From assembly GCF_000715075.1 (NCBI RefSeq), contig NC_134100.1, forward strand, positions 25,288,609 through 25,352,608: 64,000 nt of DNA, written 5' to 3'. A model generated the notes under the pieces. It saw only the letters and a list, made by a program, of their open reading frames with translations. It had not been told where the DNA came from and did no database searches. This DNA is from Nicotiana tabacum. Taxonomy: Eukaryota > Streptophyta > Magnoliopsida > Solanales > Solanaceae. This document shows, in pieces, positions 5,290 through 34,899 of the stretch. The position numbers and the translations under genes were made by a program. Position 1 is the first letter of the stretch. Each line of letters opens with the position of its first letter.

Positions 5290-5357
5290 GAACTACATTG
5301 ACCTGATTCCTTTATAGCCAAGGATATGTAGGAAACCTTTGAAGCAGAGGTTCGATC
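5290..5357 (+). other. GAACTAC structured motif, copy b (before PPT)
   Basis: This copy lies about 115 nt upstream of the LTR. P1 is CTACAT with ATGTAG, an A-T pair where copy a has G-C. P2 is TCCTT with AAGGA. A third hairpin, AACCT with AGGTT, follows. TTGA in the internal loop is complementary to TCAA at the 3' edge. Confidence 0.6.
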
Positions 5358-11150: not shown

Positions 11151-11558
11151 TCGGCACATTTCCCTAATAGGTCATGATGGCACCCAACACCATTGATGGG
11201 CAAGCCAACGCGGAAACTACCAAATAAGTTCTCATTTTAATTTTACCAAATATTTTCAATAATTCCTTAAGTTAAGATTAGGACATGCAATAACTAATAA
11301 TGTATCAAAAATAATTGTACAATCCTCAAAATAATAGTCTACTAATGTGTGTGTCAAGACCTGGTGTCATAAGTTGTAGGCAACTAGTAGAATATACAAA
11401 AGAATCACACTATCCTATTGTCCGAAACAGAATAGACAACAAAAATACATAAGAGAGACTCCTTCAGGCTGCTGAACGACATGGGAAAGGAAGCAGCTCA
11501 CTATAGGAGTCCCGAAACCTGCTCAGGAATGCGCACCAGACTGATAGCTAGAGACACC
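11151..11558 (-). repeat. Tekay 3' LTR, distal piece
   Basis: This 408-bp piece matches 42428-42838 of the other Tekay LTR (for example GGCAAGCCAACG and AACTACCAAATAAGTTCT). It is cut at ACACC, and its continuation resumes at 34905 beyond Ogre B. The outermost bases differ from the intact terminus TGTCACGGCC at 42424. Confidence 0.9.
11554..11558. repeat. Ogre B target site duplication, left copy
   Basis: ACACC precedes the TG of the Ogre B 5' LTR and is repeated after its 3' LTR at 34900-34904. The empty site ACACCTGCCTCAGATCC is seen intact in the sister Tekay LTR near 42832, which confirms the insertion point. Confidence 0.95.
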
Positions 11559-12654: not shown

Positions 12655-12680
12655 CTCGAATCTCCATTTGAAGATTCGAG
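12655..12680 (+). other. U3 hairpin 1, Ogre B 5' LTR
   Basis: CTCGAATCTCCA, TT loop, TGAAGATTCGAG: a 12-bp stem with one C-A mismatch, homologous to 6656-6681 in Ogre A. Confidence 0.7.
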
Positions 12681-12871
12681 CAGAACTCGAACCTACCCCA
12701 ACCATGCCCAAATTCATACCCTGGCACCCCCTGACCACCCTCTTGCCCAAACCACCTTTGGTTTGGGTCGAATCTGGCTAGAAACACTCGAACCCCAAAT
12801 CGAAACGTAAGAACCCTAGAAAACCAAAACTGGTTTTTGTCCGAAATTGAAGGGAATTTGGGTGTTTAACT

Positions 12872-12916
12872 GACCTTAGTCGAAGTGTTCTCAGTTGAGA
12901 ACACTCGATTAAGGTC
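12872..12916 (+). other. U3 hairpin 2, Ogre B 5' LTR
   Basis: A stem of about 22 bp: GACCTTAGTCGA then AGTGTTCTCA, loop GT, TGAGAACACT then CGATTAAGGTC. The outer arm has one bulged base and one G-T pair. It corresponds to 6874-6921 in Ogre A, with compensatory substitutions. Confidence 0.75.
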
Positions 12917-13949
12917 CGTTTGACCTCAAAAAGTTCAAGTCCGAGTCAATTCAAGTCCGTCTGTTCTCTGCTCCATTTAAGGTATTTTTCTTTCTTTCCT
13001 TTTATTCTATTTTTGATGTTTTAAATGTCTGTTTATTTGTTTAGATTTGTTATATTAATTTTTTCATTTTTGTCAAATGTTCTGTTCTTCTCACTCAAAC
13101 CTTTTATTTGGTCAAATTTACTTATGTTCGTTGCTGAGTATATATTATAGGTTGTATAATCGATTCGAATAGTTTTGTCGATTAATTAAGTTTTTATTAT
13201 AAATCCCTGTTTTTGTCAATGCCCCGTAAATTGCCTGATTATCTATTTCTGATTGCTTGTTGTCAATTGTTATAGGCAATCGGTTAATTAGTTATCGTCA
13301 ATTAATTCAGTTTTACTAGTAGTTTTCGTCAAATGGTTTGAGGTCGAATGTTGTATGTACTGATCTTTAGGCAATTAGCTTCAGGGCATTGTCAATATAC
13401 TGACAATGATCCTGCATTCTTGTATAGGTTTGACTTAGAATTGTGTTAGTTTAATCCTTGCATTCATGTGATTTTGATTCAGTTTCAGCTTCAGCTTTAA
13501 TGATTCTATTGAGTTCTGTGTTGTGTTAGTTTGGTTTTGATTTAAATTCAGTTCATTTGTTTCAATTGGAATTCAACCTTAGTCATTCAGTTGTCAGGAG
13601 GATTGGTTATAGCTGTTAATCAGAATTAGTTTTAGATAATTGTTAGCTTGAACAGATTTTAGAGTTAAAGGTTTTAATGCAGATGAATAGATTGTATTAG
13701 GGCAGTAATATTAAGGGGTTTCAGGGGTGATTTGGGAATGGAACAGTTAGGATAATATTTTAATGTTAGTGTCTTGTTAGTGGGGTATTAAATGTCTTTA
13801 AATTAATAAGTTAATGGGGAACAAGAGGGAATTGGGGCTGAAAATAAGGAAAAGCATTCCTTAGTGGGTTTTAAGTGGAAATATGCAAATTTTGGTTGCT
13901 TGGGGGGTCGGGTAGTTAAGTTTTAAAGAGGGGGCAGGTCTGTAATGAC

Positions 13950-13957
13950 TATAAATA
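13950..13957 (+). promoter_or_regulatory. TATA box, Ogre B 5' LTR
   Basis: TATAAATA in GACTATAAATAGAAGG, about 2.39 kb into the LTR. It is also present in the 3' LTR at 32970. It probably sets the U3/R border about 30 nt downstream. Confidence 0.6.
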
Positions 13958-15883
13958 GAAGGCATTTAGACTGATTAAGAAAAAAATTTTGGAGATCAGA
14001 AATTCAGAATTAGAAATATATAAAATAGGCCGACTTTTAATGTTGAAGAGGTCAGTTTAGTTTGAGAGTGAAAGTGACTGGATTTTAACACAAAAGTTCA
14101 GTTAGTTAGAGAGTGAAAACAGGCTGGATTTCAATACTAAGAGTTCAATATTGAGAGGAAGGAAGTCTAGTCTTCTTTGATTGATGAAAATCAGTTAAAA
14201 GAGTAGAGTTTCTTGAAAGTGTTCTTCTTTGAGAGTTAAAGAATAGAGAATCAGAAAGTACTGTTTCATTGCATTCTGAGTAGATTTCTGCCCTCTGTTT
14301 GTTTCTGGGAGTTCTCTGGTTCAGTTTGGTATTGCTGGGGTTGTCAACTGGTTTTTTTGAGTTTGTTGTGGGTTTCTCGTTACTGTTCCATTGGATATTG
14401 CTGGGATTTTGCTGGTTTTAATCTGTTATTGGGTTGTTGCTGTTTGTTGATGTTGTTGTGTTGCTACTGCATCTGTTGTTTCTCATCTTCCTCTTCTTTT
14501 GTTTCCAATACCAGGTACACAACTAAGCTCAATTTGATGTAGCTTTGAGATGTAAACATGAAATGGAAATGCTCGGGCCCTTAATTATTTGATGTTGTAT
14601 CTGTAGCTCAGTAGATATAGATGATAAGTAGTTGTATAGTCCAATTTGATCTATAACTCAATGAAATATAGACTGTGAAGTTTGTACCTAATTAGGACTG
14701 TTTAAACAGTTAATTCGTGTTCATTAGTTGTAGATTAGTATAGTTTAGTACTGATTTCAGCTAACATTGAGTTAAAAATCGAATATCAGTATTGTTTGGA
14801 CTTACAATTAATTCAGAAGTCAACATGTGGTGCTTATTCCGATTTCAGGTTAAACGCGCTTTTAAAACAGCCCAACATGCTAGTTATTGATGTCATCTCC
14901 TTTGTTCGTTAAGCTCACTACTTCGACGTAGGAACAAGTAATTGCATGCTAATGGTTAATATCAATAATCTACTTGAATTTGAATCAGTTAACTTATTCA
15001 TGAATGTTAGCAGAATCAAATAACCAAGTCGTGTAGTTCAAAACTCGATCCAGCATATGGATTGGGTTCTTTGGACCTAAAGTTGAAATGGCATTTGGTC
15101 TACTAATTTTCAATTGATAGACTATAGGATTTTCTAATAATAACTAATTACGGCCCCTTTTATTTATTTCTTTAGAGACAAATAAATAGAAGAATAATAG
15201 TCATTTTAGGATTAGCCTGTAAATAATAAATGAGACGAGCCTCGCCAAATAAAACGCATAAGTTGCGGGGCCCTCAGTAAATATTGCGTTAAAATACTTT
15301 AGATTTCGGGACAGACCGTCTAATGAATTTCACGGCTTTCCTCAAAATAATAACGCGCTAGTCACTTTAGGTGCGCTTTTAATAAATTACTTTCTTAAAC
15401 TCGGGTGCACATTTATGTGACCCAAATCCAAATCTCAACAGAGTCAAGATGTGTCAATAACCACGGGTGCATTGATGTGACGTGGTTCGAGACGTGTTTT
15501 CACGACGTTGCAATTCTCTCTTAAAATAACAACAATAAAAGCGGGAAAGAGTTAAAATTTGCACACAGGTTCAACATGTATAAAAATCAGATAAATAAGT
15601 CGAATATGACAGTTGCGCGACCGTGCTAGAACCACGGAACTCGGGAATGCCTAACACCTTCTCCCGGGTTAACGGAATTCCTTATCCGGATTTCTGGTTC
15701 GCGGACTGTAATACAGAGTCATTCTTTTCCTTGATTCGAGATTAAACCGTTGACTTGGGACACCATAAATCTCCCAAGTGGTGACTCTAAAATAAATAAA
15801 CAATCCCGTTTCGATTGTCCTTTAATTGGAAAAACTTCCTTTACGCCCTTGCGGGCGCAGGTAAAAAGGAGGTGTGACAGCTC

Positions 15884-16645: not shown

Positions 16646-16705
16646 GAACTACGTCGGTTTGATTCTCACCGGATGTGAGATACGAGGCAACCCTCATCGG
16701 GTCCA
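16646..16705 (+). other. GAACTAC structured motif, copy f (leader)
   Basis: GAACTACGTCGG followed by P2 TCTCAC/GTGAGA (6 bp, loop CGGAT) and a third hairpin ACCC/GGGT. P1 is damaged: the 3' arm reads ACGAGG where other copies have ACGTAGG. It lies about 580 nt upstream of ORF1. Confidence 0.6.
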
Positions 16706-16764
16706 ACTTCCCCTTTTTGCAAAAATACCCAGAAAATGTCAAAAAAATTTTTATAAGTCGGGCG

Positions 16765-17137
16765 GTGCCGTTGTTGTCAAAAATAGCCAAATATTCCTCA
16801 AAGGGACGCTGGAGGGCTGACTTTGTATAAATGGCCACTTTTGGTCATTTTTTTTGAATTTTGACCAATTAGCCCACACAGCCTTAGAATCCTCGTCCCC
16901 GAGGCTCTGTAAGGCCGTGTTCTCAATGTCGAGTTACTATTTTGGAAAAACAAGAAAAGAGTCTTAAATAAATCAAGTGATGCTGTTTTTTGTCAAAAAT
17001 AGCCAAATGTTCCCGAAAGGGACGCCGGAAGGCTGACTTTTCATAAACGACCACTTTTGATCATCCTTTAGAGTTTTGATCGGTTGACCCTCACAGCCTT
17101 AAAATCTTCATCCCCCAAGTGCTGAAAGGCCGTGTTC
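16765..17137 (+). repeat. Direct duplication in the Ogre B leader
   Basis: Two copies of a unit of about 160 bp (16765-16922 and 16977-17137) start 212 bases apart and share TTGTCAAAAATAGCCAAAT, AAAGGGACGC, GGCTGAC and CACAGCCTTA. Each ends in a hairpin pairing GCCTT(A) with (T)AAGGC, flanked by CAC/GTG. Copy 1 has an inner CCTCG/CGAGG stem that copy 2 lacks. Confidence 0.85.
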
Positions 17138-17225
17138 GGAAAATCGGATCTTTCTTTCTGAAAATATAGTCAAATCATTTTTTGAGTCAAATAATTTTTT
17201 GCTTTTGTTTAAATCACCTTAATAA

Positions 17226-19283
17226 ATGTGCAGGATGAGCACAAGTGAAAACAAACCCTTCACCGTCTTTAGCAAGGTCCCTCTCCAGCTCTATATGTGG
17301 TGGGATGATTTGGGAAAAAGCAGCAAAGAAATAGTGGTCAGAGTCTTGGGGGGTCTCATCAGTCTACTAAATGTCAAGGCAAGGACGGATGTCATCGAGG
17401 CTTTGATACCATTTTGGGACCCGACCCAAAATGTATTTCGCTTTGCGGATTTTGAGCTTACACCCACACTGGAGGAAGTAGTAGGTTATGCGGGTATGAA
17501 TGGGAATCTAAGAAGTCGGTATCTGTTGTCACCAAGGCCGGTATCGCCACACCGATTTCTGGACTTGTTAAATATCAGCCGGACTGTGCAAAATAATGAT
17601 TTATCAAAAGGATGCTGCACTCTTCAGTTCTTATATCAGTGTTATGGTAATCCGCGGGGTTTTGACGAGCCAAATTTGGGACTGACTCACGCCGGAAACA
17701 GAGGTAAATGGGAAGCAAGACGAACCTTGGCATTCATAACGGCATTCTTGGGAATCATGGTTTGCCCACGAGACGACAAGAAAATAGAGATAGGTCTTGT
17801 GGGGATGGTTGATATCGCAATGAAAAGGGCTGACAACACTATAGTTCCTCTGATTTTATCAGAAATATACCGAGCATTGACCGTGTGTAAGGAGGGAGGA
17901 AGTTTTTTCCAAGGTTGCAATCTATTACTTCAGTTGTGGATACAGGAACATCTCTGCCATCGAGTGGGGTATATGAACTTCGGGCTGACTGGTTTAAACT
18001 ACATTGAAAAGTTTGAGAAGCGGGTAACGGGTGTTGCGTTCCCCGAGGGTACTGGAGATTGGTTTATACGACTGAGATCACTAACGGCGGACCAAATTGA
18101 ATGGGCGTTTGGGTGGTTGCTCGCTACTGAAGCAATATACATGTCGGCCAAAGAATGTTATGTTCTTCTGATGGGTGTCTGTAGTATCCAACCATACGCT
18201 CCCCATCGGGCATTGCGTCAATTGGGAAGGTTCCAGATTATCCCTCATGATGAAGATTTGAGCAAGCATACTATCGAGCTAAGACCGAATGCCACAGTCC
18301 CGGAAGATATAATTCGCAAATTGTGGCATGAATGCAGATTCCTTGAGCCCAAAACTATGGTGCGAGATTTAGCCAAAGGCGAGGTGGACCCGAAGTATGA
18401 TGCATGGTTTGGGAAAAGGTTCCAGATTCATCAAAGGCCTGATAAAAGAGCCTATGTCCAGCAATTCACGAATGACTCGCAAAAACAATGGGGTTGGCTG
18501 GCAAGAGAAGAAAGCTATCGGGTTGAAATTGGCAAGCTGAAACAGTAAATTGAGGATCTAAAATATGAAAATAGCGTGCAAGTCGATACTGACACAGGAA
18601 AAAAGAACAGATTGACTCAAGCAAATAAGGCCTTGAAAGCCCAAATCCAACGAGTCAGAATGGATGCCGACAACCAACAAAGGAGCCGGTTCGACGAAGG
18701 TCTGATAACTGGGTTGAGAAACCAAGTCATTGAAAGCCGAGAGGGTTTGGCAAGATCAGAGGCCTGCATAGCAAGAATTCGGGCTAGATGGGCAAAAGGT
18801 ACAACAGCGCGAGCAAAGCACTTACGGCAAGTGAGAAGGGATTATGAAGCGCGCATTGAAATATTAAGAGAAACGAATTCCACTCTCAAAGATCGGGTCT
18901 TTAAACAAGTCCGAGATGCCAGAATGGACAGGAAGCGCTGCTATGATTTAATGGCCCGAATGGAAGAACAAATGGAGAGGTTCCAAGATTAACTCGCTGA
19001 CAACGCTCAAGTACTGGGAGCAAAGAATCAACGAATAGAGCAACTGTTCACGGAAAGGGATAGAATCAGGGGTAGAATTGAGGAGATTAGGCATTACATC
19101 ATCATGAGGTGCCTAGCATGTGAGGAAATACCCTGTGATACCCTTTTTGCTTCAGTCATGGGTTACGTCCACCGAATCATGGAAGAATTGAAAAGCTTGC
19201 AAAGGGGCCTTGCACCAAAGCCCGCGGAAAGGCCGAACGATGCCCCGTGGGCACCAAAATTCAAAGCGTTAATGTACTCCTAG
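17226..19283 (+). pseudogene. Ogre ORF1 (DUF7745 / plant-mobile-domain-like, coiled coil)
   Basis: One frame of 686 codons runs from 17226 (a more likely ATG is at 17235) to TAG at 19281-19283. It is interrupted by TAA at 18546-18548 and TAA at about 18990-18992, both readable as former CAA (Gln). Residues of about 1-430 form a globular, tryptophan-containing domain resembling the DUF7745/plant mobile domain type found in Ogre ORF1. Residues of about 440-600 are charged and heptad-like, probably a coiled coil rich in Arg, Glu and Gln. ORF1 lies upstream of gag in Ogre elements and its role is not established. There is no membrane segment or catalytic motif that I recognise. Family assignment is from memory. 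Confidence 0.8.
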
Positions 19284-19852
19284 TTCAAATCTGTATTTTT
19301 CTATTTTCAAAAGTCTGTTGTATGTCCGTGTGTTTCCTTTTGGCATCAAATTATGTTAGTACTTCGGAGTCTGTATTTTGTTTTTCTTTTCCAAATGGGT
19401 AGTTTGTAATAGAAGTTTTAGTAATGAAATAAATTTTCCAAAAATTGGTGTCTTTATTTGTGGTAGAACTACGCACGGTCTGATTCATGTGGGGACATGA
19501 TACGTAGGCAATCCACATAAGATTCGACCACCGCTAAAAGAAAAAGTGAATAAAAGAAAGGATAAGAAAGAAAGGAAAAGAGAGAAAGAGAAAGCAAATA
19601 AAGGAAAGTTTCAGAAACACCTAAAGGGCACAAGTAAAATAAGCCGGGATGATGCATACGGAGCAAAGACATGTTAGAAATGGTTAAACTGCCTAGGAAC
19701 ATTGCATCCCCCAACGTGCAATTGCAATGTGTGTTAAACTCTAACGCTAACAAGTTTGTTGTTTTCCAAAGATTTCAAACCAGTTAGTTTGTTAGAACGT
19801 TCTGGAAGATTACCATTACCAAACAAGATCCAAAGGGCCCATACCGAAAAGC
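19284..19852 (+). other. ORF1-gag spacer of Ogre B
   Basis: This non-coding stretch of about 570 bp includes an AATAAA-like word (GAAATAAAT near 19427), the GAACTAC motif copy at 19466-19529 and a purine-rich segment. I see no conserved ORF. Confidence 0.7.
19466..19529 (+). other. GAACTAC structured motif, copy c (after ORF1)
   Basis: P1 CTACG/CGTAG; P2 TCATGT/ACATGA (6 bp, GGGG loop); P3 AATC/GATT. The internal loop carries GGTC and the 3' edge GACC, the reverse of the GACC...GGTC arrangement in copies a and e, yet still complementary. It starts 183 nt after the ORF1 stop. Confidence 0.65.
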
Positions 19853-22800
19853 ATGACTAACTCAGAAAACAGTGTTGAAGAGGAAAAGACGGAAAGTCAG
19901 ATGCTGAAAGAGGCAATGGAAAAAATGAAAAAAATGAGACTGGAGATGAACGAAATGTAGCTAGCCCTGGCTAGGGTACAAAAGGGGCCCGAACCACCCG
20001 TTACTCCTACTCTCCCACCAGGACACATACCGGAATACCGTTCACCCGGCCCTTCGACAAGCTTCCCAATTCACCACTACTATCAGGGAAGAAATCCCTA
20101 TGATCCCCAAGCTCCACCACCCAATCAGAACCTTCCCCCACCAAATGCTCCTATTTTCGTGGCACCCCCACCAACCACATTACAAAGATCATCCAGTGGG
20201 CCGTTGTTTCAGGCTCACGATAACCAATATTACCCCCTGAACCTACCCTCAAAGCACCCGAGCCATATACTTATCCTCACTTTGAAATCCCGGTGGAGAC
20301 TGAAAAGCCGGCTAAAGGCCCGGAGCAAGACGAAGTGATTCAAAAATTTAAAAGCCTGGAGCAGTCCTTCAGGAATATACATGGGTTAGGCAATCAGGTT
20401 AGTGTAGCTTACAAAGATCTATGTCCTTTCCCTGATGTTCAATTACCGGCAGGGTTCAAGATGCCAAAGTTTGATCTATATGAGGGGCACGGTGATCCAA
20501 TGGCATATTTGCGAGGGTTTTGCAGCAAGATAAGAGGAGCAGGTGGTAAAGATGAGCTGCTAATAGCTTACTTTGGTCAAAGTCTAAGTGGGTCTGCACT
20601 GGAATGGTACACAAGACAGGATCCAAGCAGGTGGTACACCTGGGACGATCTAGCACAAGCATTCGCAGGTCACTTCCAGTACAACCTTGAGATCGTCCCT
20701 GACCGTCTCACATTGCTGAAACTTGAGAAGAAGCCCAGGGAAAGCTTCCGAGAATTTAGGTTCCGGTGGAGAGAACAAGCAACAAGAGTTGATCCTCCGA
20801 TGAGAGAGGGGGAAATGGTGGACTACTTTCTGCAGACTCTAGAGCCAACTTACTTTGGTCACTTGGTGAAGTCAGTTGGCAAATCTTTCAACAAGGTGGT
20901 GAAAATGGGCGATATGATTGAAGAGGGACTTAAGCCTAACAAAATCCTGAGCTATTCTGCAATCAAAGCAACAACTCAGGCCATTTAGAGCGGCATGGGA
21001 GGTGCGCTCGGGAAGAAGAAAAGAGAAGAGGTCGCAACAATAGAGGCAGGTAATTAGTCCAGATCGGAGAGGTCCTTTCCCCCGCTACCAAGCCAGACCT
21101 CATCACCCAAATTACCCACACACTCCAAATTACCCTCCACAGCCCTACTACCCACCACAAGAACCATATTTCTCCGTCCATCAAGCCCAGACATATACCC
21201 ACCCTCCGGCTCGCCCACAGTGGCGCGAGCCAGCTCCCTAAAATACCTATCCACCTCCACAAAATACATATCCACCTCCACAAAACACATATCCACCACC
21301 AACGGCCTACAGAAATTCCGCAAGGCCAGGTTTCCGGGGGAATCAGGCTTTCAGAAATGAAAGAGTGCAGAGACAAAGAACATTCACTGAGTTGGGAGAA
21401 ACCTATACTGCTTTGTTCCACAAATTAAGTCCGTTAGGTTTGTTGAGTGCTGTTGAGCCCAGATTGCCGAATCCCCTTCCCCAAAATATGGACCTCTCGG
21501 TAAGCTGTGAGTATTGTTCGGGGGCTCTCGGACATGATACCGAGAAGTGCTGGAAGTTGAAACGTGCAGTGCAAGATCTTATTGACACCAAAAAGATCGA
21601 GGTTCAGAGACCGGAGGCACCCAACATCAATCAGAACCCATTACCAGCACACTACGAAACCCACATGATCGAGCTTGTGCACGAAGGAGGGGAGCTAAAG
21701 AAACCCTCACAGACGGTGATGATGATCCGTGCCAGTCCAAAAGAAAAGTCGACAGGTGGAGAAGAGGTGGTACAGTTGGAAAAGGTAGAGTCAAGCCAGT
21801 AGTGGTGATGGGGAAGAGTTCGCCTGTTGTTGCAAAGAATCCAAAGCCGGTCAAAGTAACAATGCGAGGGGTACCAAGCAAGCCAGCATACATAAGGCCA
21901 GTTGTCATCAGGCCAGTAATGCAGATGCCGATAACCAGCGAGAAAGCCGTGCCATGGAGCTACAGTAAAGCGATAGTAATGTACAAAGGGAAGGAGGTTG
22001 TGGAAGAAGTATGTGAGGCCCAAGGCTTAACTCGTTCGGGAAGGTGTTTTGCTCCCGTAGAGTTAAGAAGGTCCAACCCAGCGGTGGTAAAGAAGCCAGT
22101 GACAGAGGAAGAGGCTGAGGAGTTTTTGAAGAAAATGAAGGCACAAGACTACTCCATTGTGGAGCAGTTAAGAAAGACCCCAGCACAGATTTCGTTACTA
22201 TCATTGCTGATCCATTCCAGTGATCATTGCCAGGCATTGATGAAAATCCTGAACGAGGCCCATGTTCCGGATAAAATCTCTGTAAATCACTTGGAGAGGA
22301 TAGTGCACAAAATCTTTGAGGTAAACCGAGTGACGTTTTCTGATGATGAATTGCCAGTAGAGGGTACAGAACACAACAAAGCCCTATACTTGACCGTGAA
22401 ATACGAAGACTCGGTGGTCACCCGAGTATTGATTGATAATGGATCAAGCGCCAACATCTGTACTTTGACTACTCTGAACAAGCTGAAAGTTGATCATGAC
22501 CGGATTCACAGGAACAACGTCTGCGTCCGAGGTTTCGATGGAGGTGGTACCGACACGGTGGGTGATATCATACTAGGATTGACCATTGGTCCAGTGGAAT
22601 TCACCATGGAATTCCAAGTGGTAGACATGGCAGTATCATACAATCTTCTATTGGGGCGACCCTGGATCCATGACGCCAAAGCAGTGCCTTCTACATTGCA
22701 CCAGATGGTGAAATTTGAATGGGATAGGCAGGAGATAGTGGTGCACGAGGATCACGGTACAGGCATTGTGAGTGATGCTGTTGTGCCATTCATAAAAACT

Positions 22801-23346
22801 GATGACGACAAAGGTCCATGGGTGTACCAGGTTTTCAACGCGGTTTCAGTGGATAAAATTTCTGAAGGCGAGGACCTTCCACTTCCCAGGATCGCAGCTG
22901 CGACCTTCATGGTAGCCTCAGAAATGCTAAACAGCGGGTTTGTACCAGGAAAAGGTTTGGGGGTTGATCTGCAAGGTATGGTCCAGCCAGTTTCTTTACC
23001 AAGAACCTGGACACTTTTGGGCTAGGATTCAAGCCTACGGCAGCAGATGTAAGGCGGGCCCGAAAGTTGAAGAAGAAAGTTTGGGTTCTTCCCAAGCCAG
23101 TTCCACGTCTTTCCAGACCTTCGTCAGAGCAGGTATCAGAAGGTAGTCAGTCCCCAAAATTCTCGGACCTCTGATTGGGTCAGATGGAAATTTGAATCAG
23201 GGTTTTGAAAGGCTGTTCGCCGATGTCAACGTGATAGAAGCTGGAGAAGGTTCCAGTAGGGCAGATATACAGTTTGTGGGGCCTAGGGCCAATATCAACA
23301 ATTGGACAGCTACTCCTCTTCCTACCCGGAGGGAGTCATGGTAGTA
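19853..23346 (+). pseudogene. Ogre B gag-pro (capsid, zinc knuckle, protease, G-patch)
   Basis: The region starts at ATG 19853 and ends at TAG TAG (23341-23346 in context ATGGTAGTAG). Order: charged N-terminus; proline-rich linker; Gag capsid-like core (20293-20988); proline-rich tract with a tandem QNTYPPP-type repeat (about 21240-21300); CX2CX5HX4C knuckle (21506-21550); aspartic protease with DNGSSAN (about 22435); and a G-patch-like GKGLG segment (about 22950). Lesions include TAG at about 19952, a frameshift at a C run near 20235, TAG at 20986, further stops or shifts at 21050-21360, a frame change near 21800 and more after 23025. No intact Gag can be made. Confidence 0.88.
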
Positions 23347-23521
23347 GGCTCTGGAGTTTCTTTCTTATTTTCTGGATTATTCCAGAGTTGTAATCCAGTT
23401 TTGTTTTATTTTTGTATTCGACAAAAGCGTGAAATTCTATTATCTCGCATTTTAATAAAGTGAAAGGTTTCTCTCTTTATTTTGTTTTAATTCTGTTTTC
23501 TTCTTTTTTCTTTCTGAACAG
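23341..23521 (+). other. Putative Ogre intron between protease and RT
   Basis: A donor GTAGTA after CATG at 23340, and an acceptor CTGAACAG (AG at 23520-23521) after a strong T/C tract, delimit 181 nt. The two gag-pro stop codons lie in the first bases of the intron. Removing the segment keeps the reading frame into the acidic region ahead of RT. Ogre elements are known to have an intron here, so unspliced RNA would give Gag-Pro and spliced RNA Gag-Pro-Pol. Splice sites are read by eye. Confidence 0.65.
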
Positions 23522-26500
23522 TTCTCTTTATACTGGTTCTAATAACATGGCATGCACAACGGATCTTCAACCTAGTCTAAAAAATCAATCTGATTCTAAA
23601 CTAATTGTACAAGAGGTTATGATGATGAATCGGAATACGATGAGGATGAAGCCTTTGAAGAGATAAATAGAGAATTAAGCCAGTTCGAAGAGAAACCCAA
23701 GCCCAATCTGAACGACACTGAAGCTGTCAATTTAGGGGATGCAGACGATGTCAGGGAAACCAAAATAAGCATCCACATTGAGCTGAACATCAGGAAGGAA
23801 CTAATCAAAGCACTCATTGAATTCAAAGATATTTTTGCATGGTCGTACGATGACATGCCGGGCTTAAGCACCGATCTAGTGGTTCACAAATTGCCCACTG
23901 ACCCGACGTGCCCTCCCATCAAGCAGAAATTGAGGAAGTTTAAGACAGATATGAGTGTGAAGATTAAAGAAGAAGTAACCAATCAGCTGCAGACAAAAGG
24001 TTATTCGGGTCACTCGATATCCTGATTGGTTGGCTAATGTGGTGCCAGTGCCGAAGAAAGATAGGAAGATCAGAGTGTGTTATGATTACCACAATTTGAA
24101 TAGGGCAAGCCCCAAGGACAACTTTCCATTACCCAACATCCATATCTTGATTGATAATTGTGCCGGACGTGAGATCGGGTCTTTTGTAGATTGCTATGCT
24201 GGGTATCATCAGATTCTGATGGATGAAGAAGATGCGGAAAAGACGGCATTCATTACGCCGTGGGGGACTTATTGCTACCGGGTAATGCCTTTTGGCTTGA
24301 AGAACGCTGGGGCAACGTACATGAGAGAAATGACTACGGTGTTCCATGACATGATACACAAAGAGATTGAGGTATACGTAGATGATGTGATCATAAAATC
24401 TAAGCGTCAGGAAGACCACGTGGCAGACCTAAGGAAGTTTTTTCAAAGACTTCGAATGTACGACATTAAGCTCAACCCGGCCAAATGTACATTTGGTGTT
24501 CCATCTGGAAAGCTGTTGGGATTCATCGTCAGTCGGCGAGGCATTGAGTTGGACCCGTCAAAAATCAAATCCATCCAGGAATTACCACCGCCGAAGAACA
24601 AAACAGAAGTAATGAGTCTGTTGGGAAGGTTGAATTATATCAGCAGGTTCATCGCTCAACTCACGGCGACTTGTGAACCCATTTTTCAGCTACTGAAGAA
24701 AGATGCTGCGGTAGAATGGACGGCAGAATGTCAGGAAGCCTTCGACCAAATCAAGGGGTATCTATCAAACCCACCTATGTTGGTCCCACCTGAACCAGGA
24801 AGACCGTTGATTCTCTATCTAACGGTATTGGAGAATTCATTTGGTTGCGTACTGGGGCAATATGATATCACAGGAAGGAAGGAGCAAGCCATCTATTATC
24901 TCAGTAAGAAGTTTATGGTCTATGAGGTTAAGTACAGTCAACTTGAGAAGACGTGTTGCGCCCTAACTTGGGTGGCACAAAAGTTTAAACATTATCTGTC
25001 ATCATATACTACTTATCTCATTTCACGCTTGGATCCACTGAAGTATATTTTCCAGAAGCCTATGCCCACAGGGAGGTTAGCGAAATGGCAAATATTACTC
25101 ACGGAGTTCGACATATTCTATGTAACGAGGACGACCATGAAAGCCCAAGCATTGGCCGATCACTTGGCTGAGAATCCTGTTGATGAAGAATATGAGCCAT
25201 TGAGGACGTATTTTCCTGATGAAGAAGTGATGCATATAGATGAGTTGGAATTATCTGAGAAACCAGGTTGGAAGCTCTTCTTTGATGGAGCCGCAAATGT
25301 GAAAGGAGTTGGAATAGGAGCGATACTTATTTCTGAAACATGACATCATTATCCTGTTACGGCACAACTACGTTTCTATTGTACCAATAACATGGCTGAA
25401 TATGAGGCATGCATTTTGGGTTTACGGTTAGCTGCAGACATGGATGTCCAGGACGTCTTGGTTTTGGGAGACTCGGACCTCCTAGTGTATCAAATCCAGG
25501 GTGAATGGGAAACACGGGATTTGAAGCTTATACTATATCGACAATGTTTGCACGATCTGAGCAAGCGATTTCGATCAGTGGAGTTCAGACACATCCCAAG
25601 AGTTCACAATGAGGTTGCCGATGCTTTGGCCACTTTAGCATCGATGTTGCACCACCCAGACAAAATTCATGTTGACCCGTTGCATATCCAGGTTCGTGAT
25701 CAGCATGCTTATTGTAACATGATAGAGGAAGAAATGGATGGCGAGCCATGGTTTTATGATGTCAAGGAATACCTCAGGATGGGAATATACCCAGAGCAGG
25801 CCACCGGAGATCAAAAGAGAGCCATTCGGCGATTGGCAAATGGATTTTTCCTCAGTGGAGGAGTGTTATACAAAAGAACACCAGATTTGGGATTGCTGAG
25901 ATGTATAGATGTTGGTCAAGCCATGATAGTGATGACAGAGGTACATGCGAGAGTTTGTGGGCCACATATGAGCGGATATGTATTGGCGAAGAAGATTCTT
26001 CGAGCAGGGTATTATTGGCTCACTATGGAGCGTGATTGTATCAATTTCGTGCGAAAATGCCATCAGTGTCAGATACACGGAGATTTGATTCATTCTCCGC
26101 CAACAGAATTGCATACAATGTCAGCACCATGGCCATTTGTTGCATGGGGCATGGATGTCATTGGACCGATTGAGCCGGCAGCTTCCAACGGTCATAGGTT
26201 CATTCTGGTCACCATCGATTATTTCACCAAGTGGGTTGAGGCTAAAACTTTCAAGTCGGTAACCAAGAAGGCAGTGGTGGATTTCGTTCATTCCCATATC
26301 ATCTGTAGATTTGGGATCCCCAAAGTGATCATCACGGACAATGGCGCTAATCTTAACAGCAGTTTGATGAAAGAAGTATGTCAACAGTTCAAGATTACAC
26401 ACCGTAATTCCACCCCGTATCGTCCCAAGGCGAATGACGCGGTTGAGGAAGCCAACAAGAACATAAAGAAGATATTGATAAAGATGGTAGAAGGGTCCAG

Positions 26501-26996
26501 ACAATGGCACGAAAAGTTGCCATTTGCATTGTTGGGATATCACACTACTGTCCGCACTTCAGTAGGTGCAACTCCTTATTTGTTGGTATACGGAACTGAA
26601 GCAGTGATACCGGCAGAAGTAGAAATTCCATCCCTCCGGATTATCGCTGAGGCTGGGATTGATGATGATGAATGGGTCAAAGCCCGATTGGAGCAGTTGA
26701 GCTTGATTGATGAAAAGAGATTGGCAGCAGTATGTCATGACCAGTTGTATCAAAAGAGGATGGCAAGAGCATATAATAAGAAGGTGCGTCCCAGGAAATT
26801 TGAAGTAGGACAGCAGGTGCTGAAACGAATCTTGCCACATCAGGCCGAAGCAAAGGGCAAGTTCGCCCCGAATTGGCAAGGGCCGTTTATTGTGACCAGA
26901 GTGTTATCCAACGGCGCCTTATGTCTGACAGATGTCGAGGGAAGATGCATCGACATGGCTATCAATTCTAACGCAGTCAAGAGATATTATGTGTAA
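23522..26996 (+). pseudogene. Ogre B pol: RT, RNase H, archaeal-like RNase H, integrase
   Basis: An acidic linker (about 23620-23850) leads into RT, with YVDD at 24375-24386. RNase H 1 (about 24810-25120) lacks the canonical first Asp. An archaeal-like RNase H follows (about 25265-25650). Integrase has an intact HHCC finger (CHQC) and a D (26154), D (26337), E (26445) triad with X60 and X35 spacing. The C-terminal domain ends at TAA 26994-26996. Lesions: a frame change near 23620, an extra base in an A run near 23995, and TGA at 25341-25343. From 25344 to the end the frame is open. Ogre A is closely similar throughout. Confidence 0.92.
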
Positions 26997-27257
26997 TTCT
27001 TTTGATTGCAATTGATGTTTGTCTATTTGTACTTGGCATTTATCGGAGAATGAAATGACGGAGGCAATTCTTTCTTCTATCCAAACACTTTAACCTTTGC
27101 TTCCCCCTTTGAGCCTTATTTATTCTTTCATACCCCTCTCTTGGAATCACTAATGAAAATGAAAAACAAAAAAAACAAAAAAGAAAGAAAAGGAAGAAAA
27201 AATAATAACAAAACAAAAAGAAAAGCCACAAGAAAAAGAAATACAAAGGAATCGAGT

Positions 27258-27317
27258 GAACTACGTTCGACCTAATTCCTCAAAGAGGATACGTAGGCGC
27301 ATCACGGCTCAGTCATA
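27258..27317 (+). other. GAACTAC structured motif, copy d (after pol)
   Basis: P1 CTACGT/ACGTAG; P2 TCCTC/GAGGA with an AAA loop. The downstream half ATCACGGCTCAGTC resembles copy a. It starts 262 nt after the pol stop. Confidence 0.6.
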
Positions 27318-29030
27318 GTATAACAAACAAATAAAAATAAAAATCCCCAAGCACGAAACTGGGGCAAAAGTTGCGGGAAGGAAGTTTGATTCCAAGAGTT
27401 GTAATGTTTTACCCATCAAAATTATTTTTGAACCTCTTTTGATACCCCTTTTTGCCATACACAAAAACCCATATTGATGTCCAAAAAGACCTCCCGATCA
27501 GTATCCAAGAAGTGCCAAGTCATGCAAATAGAAGTTGAGAATAACACTCTGATCCTCAGCAGAAAGAGGATCATAAGATGGAAAGAATTGATAGCCAAAA
27601 GAATCCCCAACAGATTAAGTCTTATCGGTAACACTCCAATCCCCAGCTGAGAAAGAGAAAATAAAATGAGAGAGTCTTATGGTGAAAACCTTCATAGGCA
27701 CCGTAAGGCAACGAAAGCTGAGAGAAACAAAATGAGAGAGTTTTATGGTGAAAACCTTCATAGGCACCAGAAGGCGACAGAAGTTGAGAGAAATGAGAGA
27801 GTCTTATTAGTGAAAACCCCTCGAAGGGCACTATGAGGCGACAAGATAAGATTGGCGGAAAGGATCCGTCGAGGCATCAAACAATGCAAAAGTGTTGATT
27901 TGGCAAAGAGAGTTGGGCGCCTGCATATCCCCCAGCGAAATGAGGCCACCAGAAAGATTGATTGATACAAATAGACTGGGTTGATTAATCTGGAATGCAC
28001 GACATGATCGTTGGGATCGGTTATATCATTCAGATAAGTCCTTTTCCTTTCTTCTCCCCAGCATTCGTTCAGAAAGACTTCTTCTTTTTCCATCTTTTGA
28101 AATTATCACTTTTCATTTCTTTTTCTTTAAGAATTTTTCCTCCAGTAGTTTGTTTTGAGAAAGATTTTTCAGAGCTTACTACCAGTTGCCAAAACGGTGC
28201 AAAGCAAAATGCGAATAGGACAGGCCAAAGATAAGGCGACAAAGCCAAAAGAAGTTTGTCGCAAGACCAAATGATGAATGGGTCTAGATTCCAAGGGAAC
28301 CAAATTTCCAGGGGAAGTTGGAGAAAAACAGAAAATTAGGAAGTTGAAAAGTTATGGATCAAATTCCAAGAGGATCCCTAGCAGATTTGCGAGATGCAGG
28401 AACAACTCCGACAGATTATTGACCAAGTTCCGCGATGGTCGGACAACACAGAGCGGGGAATGAAGAGAAAATAAAAACCATCCCCAGCAGGAATATCATC
28501 CCCAGCAAATAATATCATCCCCAACAAGTTTTGTAATAAAACGCAAAGCAGGGAAAGGAAAAAGGGGAAAAACCATCCCCAGCAGGAATGGCACGACCAC
28601 TCACCATGTTTTAAACTAACAAATTTTTCTTTGATTTGAATCAGGGGAAAGGAAATGTTATAAACAGCGGGGAGACATGGACACAAAGAAGATTATCAAA
28701 CTGGGGCAGAAAATTTTCTCTCATTTCGAAAATTTTCTTGAAATCAGATACCCACTTGGGGAAGATGGAAGATAACACAAGTTTTGAAGGAAGTGAAATT
28801 CCCAGTAGTTTACGGGAGAAGGCAATACAAGTTTTAAAGAAAGCAATCTTGGAAGAAGCAAGATAACCCAAGTTTTAAGGGTAGTGGTCTTTGAATCAGT
28901 ATAATCCCCACCATTGTTAAAAGGAGGAAAGTAACTAGTCTTAAAGAAGGAAGATAATTCCCCAACAGTGTTATCCTCGGCAGGTTTCAGAGAAGTGAAA
29001 ACACCAGTTTGAGGGAAGTAATTGCTGGAG

Positions 29031-30396
29031 AAGTCAGGAGCCCGCCTGTAGAACGGAGGTTGTTATAATTTTAAGTCGAAGAAGTCAGGAGCCCGCCTGG
29101 AGAATGGAGGTTGTTATAATTTTAAGTTGAAAAAGTCAGGAGCCCGCCTGTAGAATGGAGGTTGTTATGTTTTAAGTTGGAGTCAGGAGCCCGCCTGTAG
29201 AACGGAGGTTGTTTATTTTAAAAGTTGAAGAAGTCAGGAGCCCGCTTGTAGAATGGAGGTTGTTAAATTTTAAGTTGGAGTCAGGAGCCCGCCTGGAGAA
29301 TGGAGGTTGTTAAATTTTAAGTTGGAGTCAGGAGCCCGCCTGTAGAATGGAGGTTGTTAAATTTTAAGTTGGAGTCAGGAGCCCGCCTGTAGAACGGAGG
29401 TTGTTTATTTTAAAAGTTGAAGAAGTCAGGAGCCCACCTGTAGAACGGAGGTTATTATGTTTTAAGTTGAAGAAGTCAGGAGCCCGCCTGTAGAACGGAG
29501 GTTGTTATATTTAAGTTGGAGAAGTCAGGAGCCCACTTGTAGAACGGAGGTTGTTATAATTTTAAGTCGAAGAAGTCAGGAGCCCGCCTGTAGAATGGAG
29601 GTTGTTAAATTTTAAGTTGAAGAAGTCAGGAGCCCGCCTGTAGAATGGAGGTTGTTAAATTTTAAGTTGATGAAGTCAGAAGCCCGCCTGTAGAATGGAG
29701 GTTGTTATAATTTTAAGTCGAAGAAGTCAGGGCCCGCTTGCAGAATGGAGGTTGTTATAATTTTAAGTCGAAGAAGTCAGGAGCCCGCCTGTAGAACGGA
29801 GGTTGTTAAATTTTAAGTTGATGAAGTCAGGAGCCCGCCTGTAGAATGGAGGTTGTTAAATTTTAAGTTGATGGAGTCAGGAACCCGCCTGTAGAACGGA
29901 GGTTGTTTATTTTAAAAGTTGAAGAAGTCAGGAGCCCGCCTGTAGAATGGAGGTTGTTATTTTAAAAGTTGAAGAAGTCAGGAGCCCGCCTGTAGAATGG
30001 AGGTTGTTAAATTTTAAGTTGGAGTCAGGAGCCCGCCTAGAGAATGGAGGTTGTTAAATTTTAAGTTGGAGTCAGGAGTCCGCCTGGAGAATAGAGGTTG
30101 TTAAATTTTAAGTTGGAGTCAGGAGCCCGCCTGTAGAACGGAGGTTGTTTATTTTAAAAGTTGAAGAAGTCAGGAGCCCGCCTGTAGAATGGAGGTTGTT
30201 AAATTTGAAGTTGAAGGAGTCAGGAGCCCGCCTGGAGAATGGAGGTTGTTAAATTATAAGTTGGAGTCAGGAGCCCGCCTGTAGAACGGAGGTTGTTTAT
30301 TTTAAAAGTTGAAGAAGTCAGGAGCCCGCCTGGAGAATGGAGGTTGTTATCTTTAAGTTGAAATTAAAGTCAGGAGCCCGCCTGTAGAACAGAGGA
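29031..30396 (+). repeat. Minisatellite, about 28 units of 45-52 bp
   Basis: Repeated unit: GTCAGGAGCCCGCCTG, then TAGAACGGAGGTTGTT, then an AT-rich spacer of variable length ending AAGTTGAAGAA or AAGTTGGA. I counted 28 cores. Each has the inverted repeat CAGG-N6-CCTG. Higher-order patterns exist (GGAGTCAGG-type and GAAGTCAGG-type units alternate in blocks). It occupies the same position between pol and LTR as the 48-bp array of Ogre A. Confidence 0.95.
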
Positions 30397-30636
30397 ATAC
30401 ACTCACAAGTCAAGTCAAATAAAGAAACAGCGGAGGAAACACAAGCCAACAAGAAAGCAAGGCGACCAGAGCAAGTTTGAAGATAGATAAGATTTTGTAA
30501 TCCCTAGTTTAGTCTAGCTTCTTGTTTTCTTTTACCAATGGTGTAATAAGGAGGTCGGTAAGCAGTAGCAGCAGCATGCAACAACAGTAGCAGCAAAATT
30601 ACAGTCTCATGGTAGTCCCAGCCACCAAAACTTTCC

Positions 30637-30704
30637 GAACTACATTGACCTAATTCCCTTTTAGACAGGGATATGTAGGAAACCTTCGAAGCAGAAGTTC
30701 GGTC
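30637..30704 (+). other. GAACTAC structured motif, copy e (before PPT)
   Basis: P1 CTACAT/ATGTAG; P2 TCCCT/AGGGA; P3 AAC(C)TTC/GAAGTT with one bulge. TTGACC in the internal loop is fully complementary to GGTCAA at the 3' edge (6 bp). Confidence 0.65.
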
Positions 30705-30810: not shown

Positions 30811-30822
30811 AAAGAGTGGCAG
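30811..30822 (+). other. Polypurine tract of Ogre B
   Basis: AAAGAGTGGCAG just upstream of the 3' LTR. It has one T interruption compared with Ogre A. Confidence 0.75.
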
Positions 30823-30823
30823 C

Positions 30824-33800
30824 TATGAGCACGTGATTTTTGCCTCACACAAATTACTCCCAAAAATTCAAAATAAAATAGTTTCTTTTGTGTGCAATTT
30901 TGTGAATTTTTCGTGATATTTTCAGCTATTGATTGCATTTGTGTGTACACGTTTATTTGTGTAAATTAATGGAAAAGTACAAAAATATAGCATTTTGAAT
31001 TTAGGATTTTATTTTTAGTAAAATTGTATTTTTACAAGAAAAGCATAAAAAATAATGCACTTTGCATTTTAGTGTTTAATTGTGTGATTTGGTATTTAAT
31101 TATTCTGTGATAATTACTACTTAGAGTTAATTAACATTTTTAGGATAAATTGATCAAGTTTAAATTTAGTTTTGGATTTTTTTTATTTTATTAGAATTCT
31201 AGAATAATAAAAGGAAAAGAATAATAAATAGTTTATCAGAATTTTGGGCCAAATTCAGTTTAATTTGAAAAGCCCAAATCAAATTCGCCCCAACCCGGTC
31301 CGCCCCAGCGTCGACCAAACAATGATGTTTTGGTCATGTCAATCTGGACCGTTGAATCAGTTTGATCAAACGGTCCAGAAGTTAACCCATTCACAAACCC
31401 TGACCCGACCTACCTTGTACCCGGTCCGGTACAGCACCCATGTGGTTGAAACGACCCCGTTTTGATTATTGACTCGATTAGGACCGTTGGATTATTCTTC
31501 TAGCGGCCCTGATTAAATCAACAATTTTAATATACCACAACCCCCCCAAACCTCTTACCCTCATTTCATTCTCACACCCCCCATCTCTCATCTTCTTCAG
31601 AGACAAAACGTAACGCCACCGCCCGCCACCAAGCCGGAAATTGCCTACGGCAATGTTCGGCGCCCAATCCCTCCCACTTTTACATCGTAGACTCCCTTAA
31701 CCTCCCCGTCCCGAATCCCCACTCCGTTTCCCTCGAATGTTGCTCGATCTTCTCAAATATTAGATCGAAAACCTGGAACCCTAATAGCCGCCACCCTTTC
31801 CCCCTTTCCTCTGGTGGCGGCACCACTTCCCCTCAGCCCCAAATTAACACCAAATGACCACCAAACCACCCCCGATCCAAATCCATGAACCACTTGCCTC
31901 GAATCAACTTGGAACTTCTCGAATCTCCATTTGAAGATTCGAGCAGAACCCGAACCTACCCCAACCAAGCCCAAATTCATACCATGGCACCCCCTGACCT
32001 CCCTCGTGCCCAAACCACCTTTGGTTTGGGTTGAATCTGGCTAGAAACACTCGAACCCCAAATCGAAACGTAAAAACCCTAGAAAACCAAAACTGGTTTC
32101 TGTCCGAAATTGAAGGGAATTTGGGTGTTTAACTGACTTTAGTCGAAGTGTTCTCAGTTGAGAACACTCGATTAAGGTCCGTTTGACCTCAAAAAGTTCA
32201 AGTCCGAGTCAATTCAAGTCCGTCTGTTCTCTGTTCCATTTAAGGTATTTTTCTTTTTTTACTTTTATTCTATTTTTGATGTTATAAATGTCTGTTTATT
32301 TGTTTAGAGTTGTTATATTAATTTTTTCATTTTTGTCAAATGTTCTGTTCTTCTCACTCAGACCTTTTATTTGGTCAAATTTACTTTTGTTCGTTGTTGA
32401 GTATATATTATAGGTTGTATAATCGATTCGAATAGTTTCGTCGATTAATTAAGTTTTTATTATAAATCCCGATTTTTGTCAATGCCCATAAATTGCCTGA
32501 TTATCTATTTCTGATGGAATAGATAATTCAGTTGCCCCATAGTTTTTGTCAATGCCCCATAAATTGCCTGATTATCTATTTTTGTCAATGCCCCATAGTT
32601 TAGTCATTCAGTTGTCAGGAGGATTGGTTATAGCTGTTAATCAGAATTAGTTTTAGATAATTGTTAGCTTGAACAGATTTTAGAGTTAAAGGTTTTAATG
32701 CAGATGAATAGATTGTATTAGGGCAGTAATATTAAGGGGTTTCAGGGGTGATTTGGGAATGGAACAGTTAGGATAATATTTTAATGTTAGTGTCTTGTTA
32801 GTGGGGTATTAAATGTCTTTAAATTAATAAGTTAATGGGGAACAAGAGGGAATTGAGGCTGAAAATAAGGAAAAGCATTCCTTAGTGGGTTTTAAGTGGA
32901 AATATGCAGATTTTGGTTGCTGGGGGGTCGGGTAGTTAAGTTTTAAAGAGGGGGAAGGTATGTAATGGCTATAAATAGAAGGCATTTGGACTGATTAAGA
33001 AAAAAAATTTGGAGATCAGAAATTCAGAATTAGAAATATATAAAATAGGCTGACTTTTAATGTTAAAGAGGTCAGTTTAGTTTGAGAGTGAAAGTGACTG
33101 GATTTTAACACAAAAGTTCAGTTAGTTAGAGAGTGAAAACAGGCTGGATTTCAATACTAAGAGTTCAATATTGAGAGGAAGGAAGTCTAGTCTTCTTTGA
33201 TTGCTGAAAATTAGTTAAAAGAGTAGAGTTTCTTGAAAGTGTTCTTCTTTGAGAGTTAAAGAATAGAGAATCAGAAAGTACTATTTCATTGCATTTCTGA
33301 GTAGATTTCTGCCCTCTGTTTGTTTCTGGGAGTTCCCTGGTTCAGTTTGGTATTGCTGGGGTTGTCAACTGGTTTTTCTGAGTTTGTTGTGGGTTTCTCG
33401 TTACTGTTCCATTGGATATTGCTGGGATTTTGCTGGTTTTAATCTGTTATTGGGTTGTTGCTGTTTGTTGATGTTGCTGTGTTGCTACTGCATCTGTTGT
33501 TTCTCATCTTCCTCTTCTTTTGTTTCCAACACCAGGTACACAACTAAGCTCAATTTGATGTAGCTTTGAGATGTAAACATGAAATGGAAATGCTCGGGCC
33601 CTTAATTATTTGATGTTGTATCTGTAGCTCAGTAGATATAGATGATAAGTAGTTGTATAGTCCAATTTGATCTATAACTCAATGAAATATAGACTATGAA
33701 GTTTGCACCTAATTAGGACTGTTTAAACCGTTAATTCGTGTTCGTTAGCTGTAGATTTAGTATAGTTTAGTACTGATTTCAGCTAACATTGAGTTAAAAA

Positions 33801-34899
33801 TCGAATATCAGTATTGTTTGGACTTACAATTAATTCAGAAGTCAACATGTGGTGCTTATTCCGATTTCAGGTTAAACGCGCTTTTAAAACAGCCCAACAT
33901 GCTAGTTATTGATGTCCACTCCTTTGTTCGTTAAGCTCACTACTTCGACGTAGGAACAAGTAATTGCATGCTAATGGTTAATATCAATAGTCTACTTGAA
34001 TTTGAATCAGTTAACTTAGTCATGAATGTTAGCAGAATCAAATAACCAAGTCGTGTAGTTCAAAACTCGATCCAGCATATGGATTGGGTTCTTTGGACCT
34101 AAAGTTGAAATGGCATTTGGTCTACTAATTTCAATTGATAGACTATAGGATTTTCTAATAATAACTAATTAGGGCCCCTTTTATTTATTTCTTTAGAGAC
34201 AAATAAATAGAAGAATAATAGTCATTTTAGGATTAGCCTATAAATAATAAATGAGACGAGCCTCGCCAAATAAAACGCATAAGTTGCGGGGCCCTCAGTA
34301 AATATTGCGTTAAAATACTTTAGATTTCGAGACAGACCGTCTAATGAATTTCACGGCTTTCCTCAAAATAATAACGCGCTAGTCACTTTAGGTGCGCTTT
34401 TAATAAATTACTTTCTTAAACTCGGGTGCACATTTATGTGACCCAAATCCAAATCTCAACAGAGTCGAGATGTGTCAATAACCACGAGTGCATTGATGTG
34501 ACGTGGTTCGAGACGTGTTTTCACGACGTTGCAATTCTCTCTTAAAATAACAACAATAAAAGCGGGAAAGTTAAAATTTGCACACAGGTTCAACATGTAT
34601 AAAAATCAGATAAATAAGTCGAATATGACAGTTGAGCGACCGTGCTAGAACCACGGAACTCGGGAATGCCTAACACCTTCTCCCGGGTTAACAGAATTCC
34701 TTATCCGAATTTCTGGTTCGCGGACTGTAATACAGAGTCATTCTTTTCCTCGATTCGGTATTAAACCGGTGACTTGGGACTCCATAAATCTCCCAAGTGG
34801 CGACTCTAAAATAAATAAACAAATCACGTTTCGATTGTCCTTTAATTGGAAAAACTTCCTTTACGCCCTTGCGGGCGCAGGTAAAAAGGAGGTATGACA
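30824..34899 (+). repeat. 3' LTR of Ogre B (4.08 kb)
   Basis: It begins TATGAGCACG (the terminal TG has become TA) and ends GGAGGTATGACA, followed by ACACC. It is about 245 bp shorter than the 5' LTR. About 325 bp (the equivalent of 13254-13578) is replaced by roughly 85 bp of locally templated filler at about 32514-32600. It contains the TATA box (32970) and both U3 hairpins (31918-31943 and 32135-32179). No gene is present. Confidence 0.95.

Follow-up and report, generated by a model that had tools for sequence, protein, structure and literature searches.

Tat/Ogre long terminal repeat (LTR) retrotransposons carry a conserved pseudoknotted RNA element, in sense orientation, at four sites, and the element is kept in relatives that have no genes. 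We analysed it in a stretch of 64,000 nt of Nicotiana tabacum DNA (GCF_000715075.1, NC_134100.1, positions 25,288,609-25,352,608, forward strand), hereafter the window, which holds two related elements, Ogre A and Ogre B. We regard this motif as an RNA module of plant mobile elements that acts in cis and is portable, most likely a roadblock against a 5'-to-3' exonuclease, and give this reading a probability of about 0.3.

GAACTAC, with which the motif starts, is located at exactly 3130, 5290, 16646, 19466, 27258 and 30637 of the window, and all six segments reported in the initial annotation were thus recovered. The 7-mer by itself is unremarkable, with eight occurrences on the plus strand and six on the minus strand of the window. 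The motif unit of the six copies extends over 57-68 nt, from GAACTAC through the end of the pseudoknot strand. In the predicted fold, an unpaired GAA is followed by the outer helix P1, 1-3 joining bases, the 5' strand of the pseudoknot and UGAU, which is replaced with UAAU in the copies at 27258 and 30637. The inner hairpin comes next. It is followed by a single U, the closing 3' strand of P1, a G and a third hairpin; usually a single C then leads to the 3' pseudoknot strand, whose partner lies in the joint that connects P1 with the inner hairpin. A pairing of GAA with the bases preceding the last strand was considered and rejected by eye.

All six copies are on the plus strand. Ogre B contains copy a in its leader (16646..16708), copy b between the first open reading frame (ORF1) and gag (19466..19529), copy c after pol (27258..27314) and copy d before the 3' LTR (30637..30704). 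The window begins inside pol of Ogre A, of which copies c (3130..3186) and d (5290..5357) are present. The copies at 3130 and 27258 occupy equivalent positions in the two related elements, as do those at 5290 and 30637, so that the six copies of the window amount to four independent sites. The two forms of P1 described initially, CTACGT/ACGTAG and CTACAT/ATGTAG, were found in both copies c and in both copies d, respectively; copy b has an innermost C-A mismatch (CTACGC/ACGTAG), and copy a lacks one base of the 3' strand (CTACGT/ACG-AG), a deletion that had been missed. The inner helix was said to differ in sequence and still to pair, and it is indeed perfectly paired in 6/6 copies: TCTCAC/GTGAGA in a, TCATGT/ACATGA in b, TCCTC/GAGGA and TCCCT/AGGGA in c and d of Ogre B, and TCCT/AGGA and TCCTT/AAGGA in c and d of Ogre A. 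The third hairpin, which had been noted in several copies, is clear by eye at 5290 (AACCT/AGGTT), 16646 (ACCC/GGGT), 19466 (AATC/GATT) and 30637, and weak at 3130 and 27258. The pseudoknot lettering of the initial annotation is partly right; the strands read GACC/GGTC at 3130 and 30637, GGTC/GACC at 19466, GGTT/AACT with one G-U pair at 16646, and GACC/GATC and GACC/AGTC, each with one mismatch, at 5290 and 27258.

An unfiltered scan of both window strands with a covariance model detected the six copies at 56-75 bits (56.3, 75.0, 61.4 and 59.2 bits for a, b, c and d of Ogre B; 67.6 and 68.3 bits for c and d of Ogre A), and the next match scored 11.7 bits (E 0.13). As these copies, including copy a, are rows of the model, their own scores prove little, and it is the empty remainder of the window that is informative. 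A sequence-free descriptor was too loose for the window, returning 814 and 711 matches.

Base pairing in this motif is retained while the sequence changes. When the six copies were compared together with L007, a copy from another plant described below, 97.1% of the cells were paired and both sides had changed in 9 of 16 pairs, whereas sliding by 1-3 columns left 29-47% of cells and 0-2 pairs; one of five measures, that of further pair types, was not clearly above the shuffles (78/500). In an alignment of 69 distinct copies made with MAFFT from the sequence alone, 94.0% of 1231 cells were paired versus 21-38% with partners slid by 1-3 columns. The covariation score was 0.381, compared with at most 0.102 for slid and at most 0.186 for shuffled alignments (0/500), and all four pseudoknot pairs changed on both sides. 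The number of pairs with a change on both sides was not clearly above the shuffles (80/500), and that of further pair types did not exceed them (483/500). In a larger alignment (106 copies, 95 distinct), in which the inner hairpin and P1 were registered by anchors and not by pairing, the pseudoknot was paired in 364/380 cells, P1 in 534/569 (its innermost pair in 70/95), and the first four pairs of the inner hairpin in 366/370 (the fourth in 84/85), the fifth in 65/77 and the sixth in 22/58. Fully paired pseudoknots include GACC/GGTC, GACT/AGTC, GGTC/GACC, GATC/GATC, GGTT/AACC, AGTT/AACT, AACC/GGTT and GGCC/GGCC. In both alignments the 3' end of L007 is misaligned, which counts against the structure there.

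The copies were then compared with a tree-aware null, our own R-scape-like procedure in which substitutions are re-dropped 1000 times on a FastTree tree. The sum over all helices was 465.7 with 95 rows, whereas the null maximum was 200.3 (0/1000). The null reached the pseudoknot and the inner hairpin in 0/1000 cases with either 69 or 95 rows, and the sum of the outer helix P1 in 1/1000 with 69 rows and 28/1000 with 95 rows. P4, the third hairpin, was the weakest helix and was reached in 29/1000 with 69 rows, an alignment in which class c is one column out of register. With 95 rows, the top five among 1540 column pairs were all predicted ones. No single pair was significant (best E 0.12 with 69 rows and 0.15 with 95 rows) because the copies are too closely related. 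Hence the initial proposal of selection on RNA shape, pseudoknot included, is supported by the helix sums in both alignments, and the covariation that it anticipated in a deeper alignment appears in these sums and not in individual pairs. In seventeen additional d-type copies, the pseudoknot was paired in 59/68 cells and fully in 10/17 copies, and strands exchanged among them still paired at 3.2 of 4 positions. Beyond pairing, A2, T17, A19, T20 and T41 are constant in 69/69 rows.

The motif is abundant in the source genome. A gapped strict pattern, CTACGT-TGATTC-GATACGTAGG, matched 22,959 times (11,566 + 11,393) in the 4.0 Gb genome, and its A-U counterpart, CTACAT-TGATTC-GATATGTAGG, 14,382 times (7,235 + 7,147); reversed control patterns had 0 matches. 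These counts cover the two paired states of P1 only. Twenty 10-kb stretches, chosen by hand among 100 listed pattern matches in the first 10 Mb of one contig, and thus found through matches mostly of copy c, were analysed by tblastn and with the covariance model. All 20 contain parts of Tat/Ogre elements or of their gene-less relatives, in line with the coding-border location proposed in the initial annotation. They gave 56 covariance matches at E <= 0.1, all of at least 49.9 bits and many of them rows of the model. The main strand of the respective stretch carried 55 of the 56, and the single off-strand match presumably belongs to a neighbouring element. Every stretch shows part of the order a-ORF1-b-gag-protease (PR)-reverse transcriptase (RT)-RNase H/integrase-c-d, and none shows the whole coding element or contradicts the order, except that the automatic class letters of two copies in L067 disagree with their position. 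Copy d lies inside the stretch in 12 of the 17 stretches with c (in L067 by position) and is absent from L054, L060, L064, L066 and L068. Two class-c-like copies lie 1.2 kb apart on one strand at 6479912 and 6481082 of genome contig C1 (L085 and L086), which are possibly an element with a doubled c site.

Other families share this arrangement. L066 and L068, the gag of which is 53 and 66% like that of Ogre B, and L070 (gag 46% and ORF1 40% like Ogre B) represent other families with shortened b-c parts. By eye, the classes retain their own inner sequences across families, such as TCATG or TCACG in b, and judging from these sequences the four sites therefore seem older than the element families. 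Motif identity was 0.70-0.97 in 85 comparisons made class by class among 28 chosen copies, both within families and between them. The 70-base flanks of a, b and c mostly stayed close to the level given by shuffling (0.47-0.70), but some were higher and reached 0.96 (L066/L068).

Several stretches keep the motif without genes. L051, L053 and L059 contain a, b, c and d, and L064 contains a, b and c, without any coding match. Between a and c, L051, L059 and L064 share blocks with L053 at 83-94%, L054 and L056, which keep gag, at 81-88%, and L058, which keeps gag and remnants, at 76-83%. The LTR and noncoding blocks of the four gene-less stretches are about 73-86% like those of Ogre B, tandem repeats aside. 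These four are a non-autonomous family related to Ogre B, with three to four motif copies per stretch. An ORF1 match between a and b is missing in 10 of the 12 stretches holding both copies. The retention of c is not independent evidence, as the stretches were located mostly through c matches. Since gene-less elements keep their copies, a role confined to the translation of successive ORFs is disfavoured.

A further copy was found next to a DNA transposon gene. A pattern scan of genome contigs gave four stretches, of which L007 is a full copy and L005, L006 and L008 lack the fold by eye. L007 has P1, the inner hairpin TCCTC/GAGGA, the third hairpin CTTAATT/AATTAAG and the pseudoknot GGCCTT/AAGGCC. 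It comes from a contig of a 'Bacilli' metagenome-assembled genome (MAG) from roe deer gut. The contig extends 1.9 kb past the first stretch, and this part (L112, G001:C163:7600-9923) encodes a hAT transposase in a 656-amino-acid frame that is on the strand of the motif and runs open to the end of the contig. The frame has a Dimer_Tnp_hAT domain (E 1.9e-21) and a hAT-like RNase-H domain (E 2e-9). The stop codon of the transposase ends 52 nt before the motif. An assignment of L007 as a contig-end copy beside an Ogre-like gene was dropped because the contig continues with this transposase, and Ogre protein pieces had no real match in L112 (best E 0.45).

Among the 120 of 251 matches listed for the hAT protein, the top one (97%) is unnamed, and close named ones come from Dipteronia, Xanthoceras and Acer. 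The other side of the contig is bacterial, and its ssb gene aligns with the 104-position SSB profile from position 59 onwards only. Because the plant-like hAT gene stands beside bacterial genes with a half-domain ssb, the contig is a chimera whose motif piece is attributed to a plant, and a bacterial origin of L007 was rejected. By its protein matches, the source is probably a member of the maple family. The MAG, listed with 900,000 bases, gave no other match at E <= 0.001, and a plasmid search with 311 bases around L007 gave no match. Pattern scans of viral contigs yielded 0, 4, 14 and then 2 stretches, every one of which looked like a chance match on inspection by eye, and an Ogre protein search of viral contigs had no match. 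The motif thus may not be confined to Ogre; the location at Tat/Ogre coding borders, as first proposed, describes the 20 sampled stretches and not this copy behind a hAT transposase of another plant, and 'of Ogre' may be too narrow a name.

Tat/Ogre LTR retrotransposons are characterized by an ORF before gag, RVT_3 before integrase and very long LTRs, and the window element has all three. In Ogre B, all of the following features being on the plus strand, the 5' LTR (approximately 11555..15879) matches 30820-34899 in two blocks at 96.0 and 97.9%, and the 3' LTR (approximately 30820..34899) has a boundary set by eye. The ORF1 frame with a plant mobile domain (PF10536)/DUF7745 (17226..18548) lies between copies a and b, and the gag frame with Retrotrans_gag (20224..20988) lies downstream of b. 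RT, RNase H, a second RNase H (RVT_3) and integrase are encoded in two adjoining open frames (23979..26996). Copy a starts 580 nt upstream of the ORF1 frame, the start of c follows the end of the pol frame by 262 nt, and about 115 nt separate the end of d from the 3' LTR. Downstream of copy a, a 150-base segment of the leader occurs twice (16771-16922 and 16987-17137), with repeated matches also in L051 and L053, and tandem repeats with a unit of about 50 bases lie between c and d in both elements (29026-30395 and 4298-4865). A CCHC-like stretch is seen by eye in the frame 21242-21802, and window 21586-23025 has a weak G-patch match (19.7 bits against a cut-off of 22) near the end of the frame after gag; G-patches occur in some retroviral proteases. 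A PR-RT gap of about 960-1030 bases is regular in L052, L055, L057, L060, L061 and L065, and a similar one spans window 23025-23979. We take this gap to be perhaps the Ogre intron; among the covariance matches in the six stretches, none falls in it.

No Rfam 15 family reached its gathering score in the window. Weak matches (E <= 10) in motif-bearing stretches were far below that score: CRISPR-DR54 inside copy d (15.7 bits versus 39, E 2.1) and snR49 on the opposite strand, overlapping the L040 copy (18.6 versus 45). Two other weak-threshold scans, one at E <= 5, had nothing on a motif copy. The motif also resembles the exoribonuclease-resistant RNA class xrRNA_D, which carries the 5' pseudoknot strand in the apical loop of its hairpin. 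In our motif, by contrast, this strand occupies the joint that links P1 to the hairpin (69 rows), and the extra hairpin comes ahead of the 3' pseudoknot strand instead of following it. The xrRNA_D of Tombusviridae and Luteoviridae likewise combines P1, a hairpin and a covarying pseudoknot in a compact form, some with an extra hairpin, and occupies intergenic and 3' untranslated region (UTR) sites of plant viruses, some just upstream of ORFs (PMC6299227). Covariation in P1, hairpin and pseudoknot, a criterion for xrRNA_D, is present in our motif in the helix sums and not in single pairs. Coremin (xrRNA_C) requires a 5' hairpin with a YGAD loop, a spacer and a second hairpin (PMC10520033); no such YGAD hairpin was seen by eye in the ten bases 5' of GAACUAC in the six window copies. 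The letters ACUAC are present in both, which is taken as chance, and intergenic and 3' UTR sites are shared as well. The Ty1 5' pseudoknot, to which a Gag fragment binds, likewise belongs to the genomic RNA of an LTR retrotransposon; it is a single long-range structure near the 5' end, unlike a compact module repeated at gene borders. Among the papers listed in full-text searches of an open-access library, none on the motif was seen. Within these searches, the RNA family and its four-site arrangement matched nothing examined and appear new; cis-acting RNA structures in retroelements as such are already known.

How would such a module act? The motif is used by gene-less Ogre relatives and possibly by a DNA transposon, and so presumably acts by itself or with host factors, without proteins of the element. 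The strand that exits P1 comes back to the top of this helix and might encircle the 5' end of the RNA. Decay in the 5'-to-3' direction would stop at P1, RNAs starting at a, b, c or d would survive, and the 3' part of the transposase RNA would survive likewise. Such a roadblock ranks highest among the functions considered, followed by host-protein binding and Gag packaging as close rivals, then translation and self-cleavage. The intergenic and 3' placement, with P1, a hairpin and a covarying pseudoknot as in the xrRNA_D of plant viruses, favours a roadblock. Several observations weigh against it. The pseudoknot strand is placed differently from that of xrRNA_D, and the leader site brings no obvious gain to a roadblock. 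The hAT association is one case on a chimeric contig, and the L007 copy may come from a hAT element nested in a Tat element or from a second joint. Retention in gene-less elements may be partly passive, and copy d sits in a generally conserved stretch (flanks 0.64-0.87). In a hand tally with 95 rows, which took in the pseudoknot, the first four inner-hairpin pairs and all of P1 except the innermost pair, G-U cells were not clearly above A-C cells (25 versus 19), and the strand assignment therefore rests on orientation. Against the motif as a fold, whatever its function, single copies show no unusual stability of their nested structure (z -1.55 to +0.44 for the six copies, the pseudoknot unscored); among ten copies folded, L007 alone stands out in energy (z -3.16).

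A somewhat weaker candidate is recognition of the constant core (GAA, P1, UGAU, GAUACGUAGG) by a host RNA-binding protein for export, stability or localization of the element RNA. The conservation of the core beyond pairing and its use by gene-less elements and beside a hAT gene fit this idea, whereas no Rfam family at gathering score in the window suggests such a binding site. The hAT finding raises the odds of host or intrinsic action and lowers those of a repeated Gag binding site that marks the long genomic RNA for packaging or assembly, because a hAT transposon has no Gag, unless the L007 copy belongs to a nested Tat element. Gag binding, a doubtful but serious contender, agrees with the copies in gene-less relatives and the CCHC-like stretch noted above. 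In yeast Ty1, the 5' pseudoknot contains a major site of a Gag fragment, and packaging sites are considered likely to be scattered, although a packaging role of that pseudoknot could not be demonstrated (PMC4974528); a BARE2 RNA making no Gag is packaged into BARE1 particles (PMC3735527). Control of translation of successive ORFs, by internal entry, reinitiation or a ribosome block, would suit copies a and b upstream of ORF1 and gag-pol; it is unlikely in view of c, d and the hAT copy, which stand behind ORFs, and of copies a to d in gene-less elements.

A self-cleaving ribozyme cutting 5' of P1 is quite improbable. The strand order of hepatitis delta virus (HDV)-like (delta, theta) ribozymes, P1-P2-P3-P1-P4-P2, is the same in the 69- and 95-row alignments, and a C stands directly before the last strand, in the P4-P2 joint, in 65/69 rows, usually as the only base of the joint. 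P1.1 of HDV-like ribozymes forms between loop 3 and the bases after P1, which is impossible with the GAAA or AAAA loops of 5/69 rows. Unlike these ribozymes, the motif has a one-base joint in most copies, an extra UGAU between P2 and P3, and upstream of P1 a conserved GAA that would lie outside the product; four cuts would also break the genomic RNA. The catalytic C of theta ribozymes is the first base of J4/2 (PMC10879173). The slimmest chance is left to a DNA-level element or passive repeat without RNA function. TACGT/ACGTA lies within the P1 strands, and wobble pairs do not single out the sense strand, but covariation across the crossing helix and the fixed order and orientation speak for an RNA.

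Beyond the exonuclease roadblock, a broader and speculative possibility is an RNA 'punctuation mark' common to unrelated plant mobile elements. Four copies would divide the genomic RNA of LTR retrotransposons at gene borders and hAT would carry one behind its transposase, with the knot defining RNA ends, as an exonuclease block or processing guide, independently of element proteins. It might have spread between classes, or be an older plant RNA part adopted by several.

To our knowledge, how one long Ogre-type RNA serves two ORFs, packaging and reverse transcription is an open question, and the motif gives a direct handle on it. The fold is compact, matches tens of thousands of times in a single genome and marks Ogre-type elements in assemblies. 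It stands at gene borders, is kept by gene-less relatives and is perhaps common to a DNA transposon.

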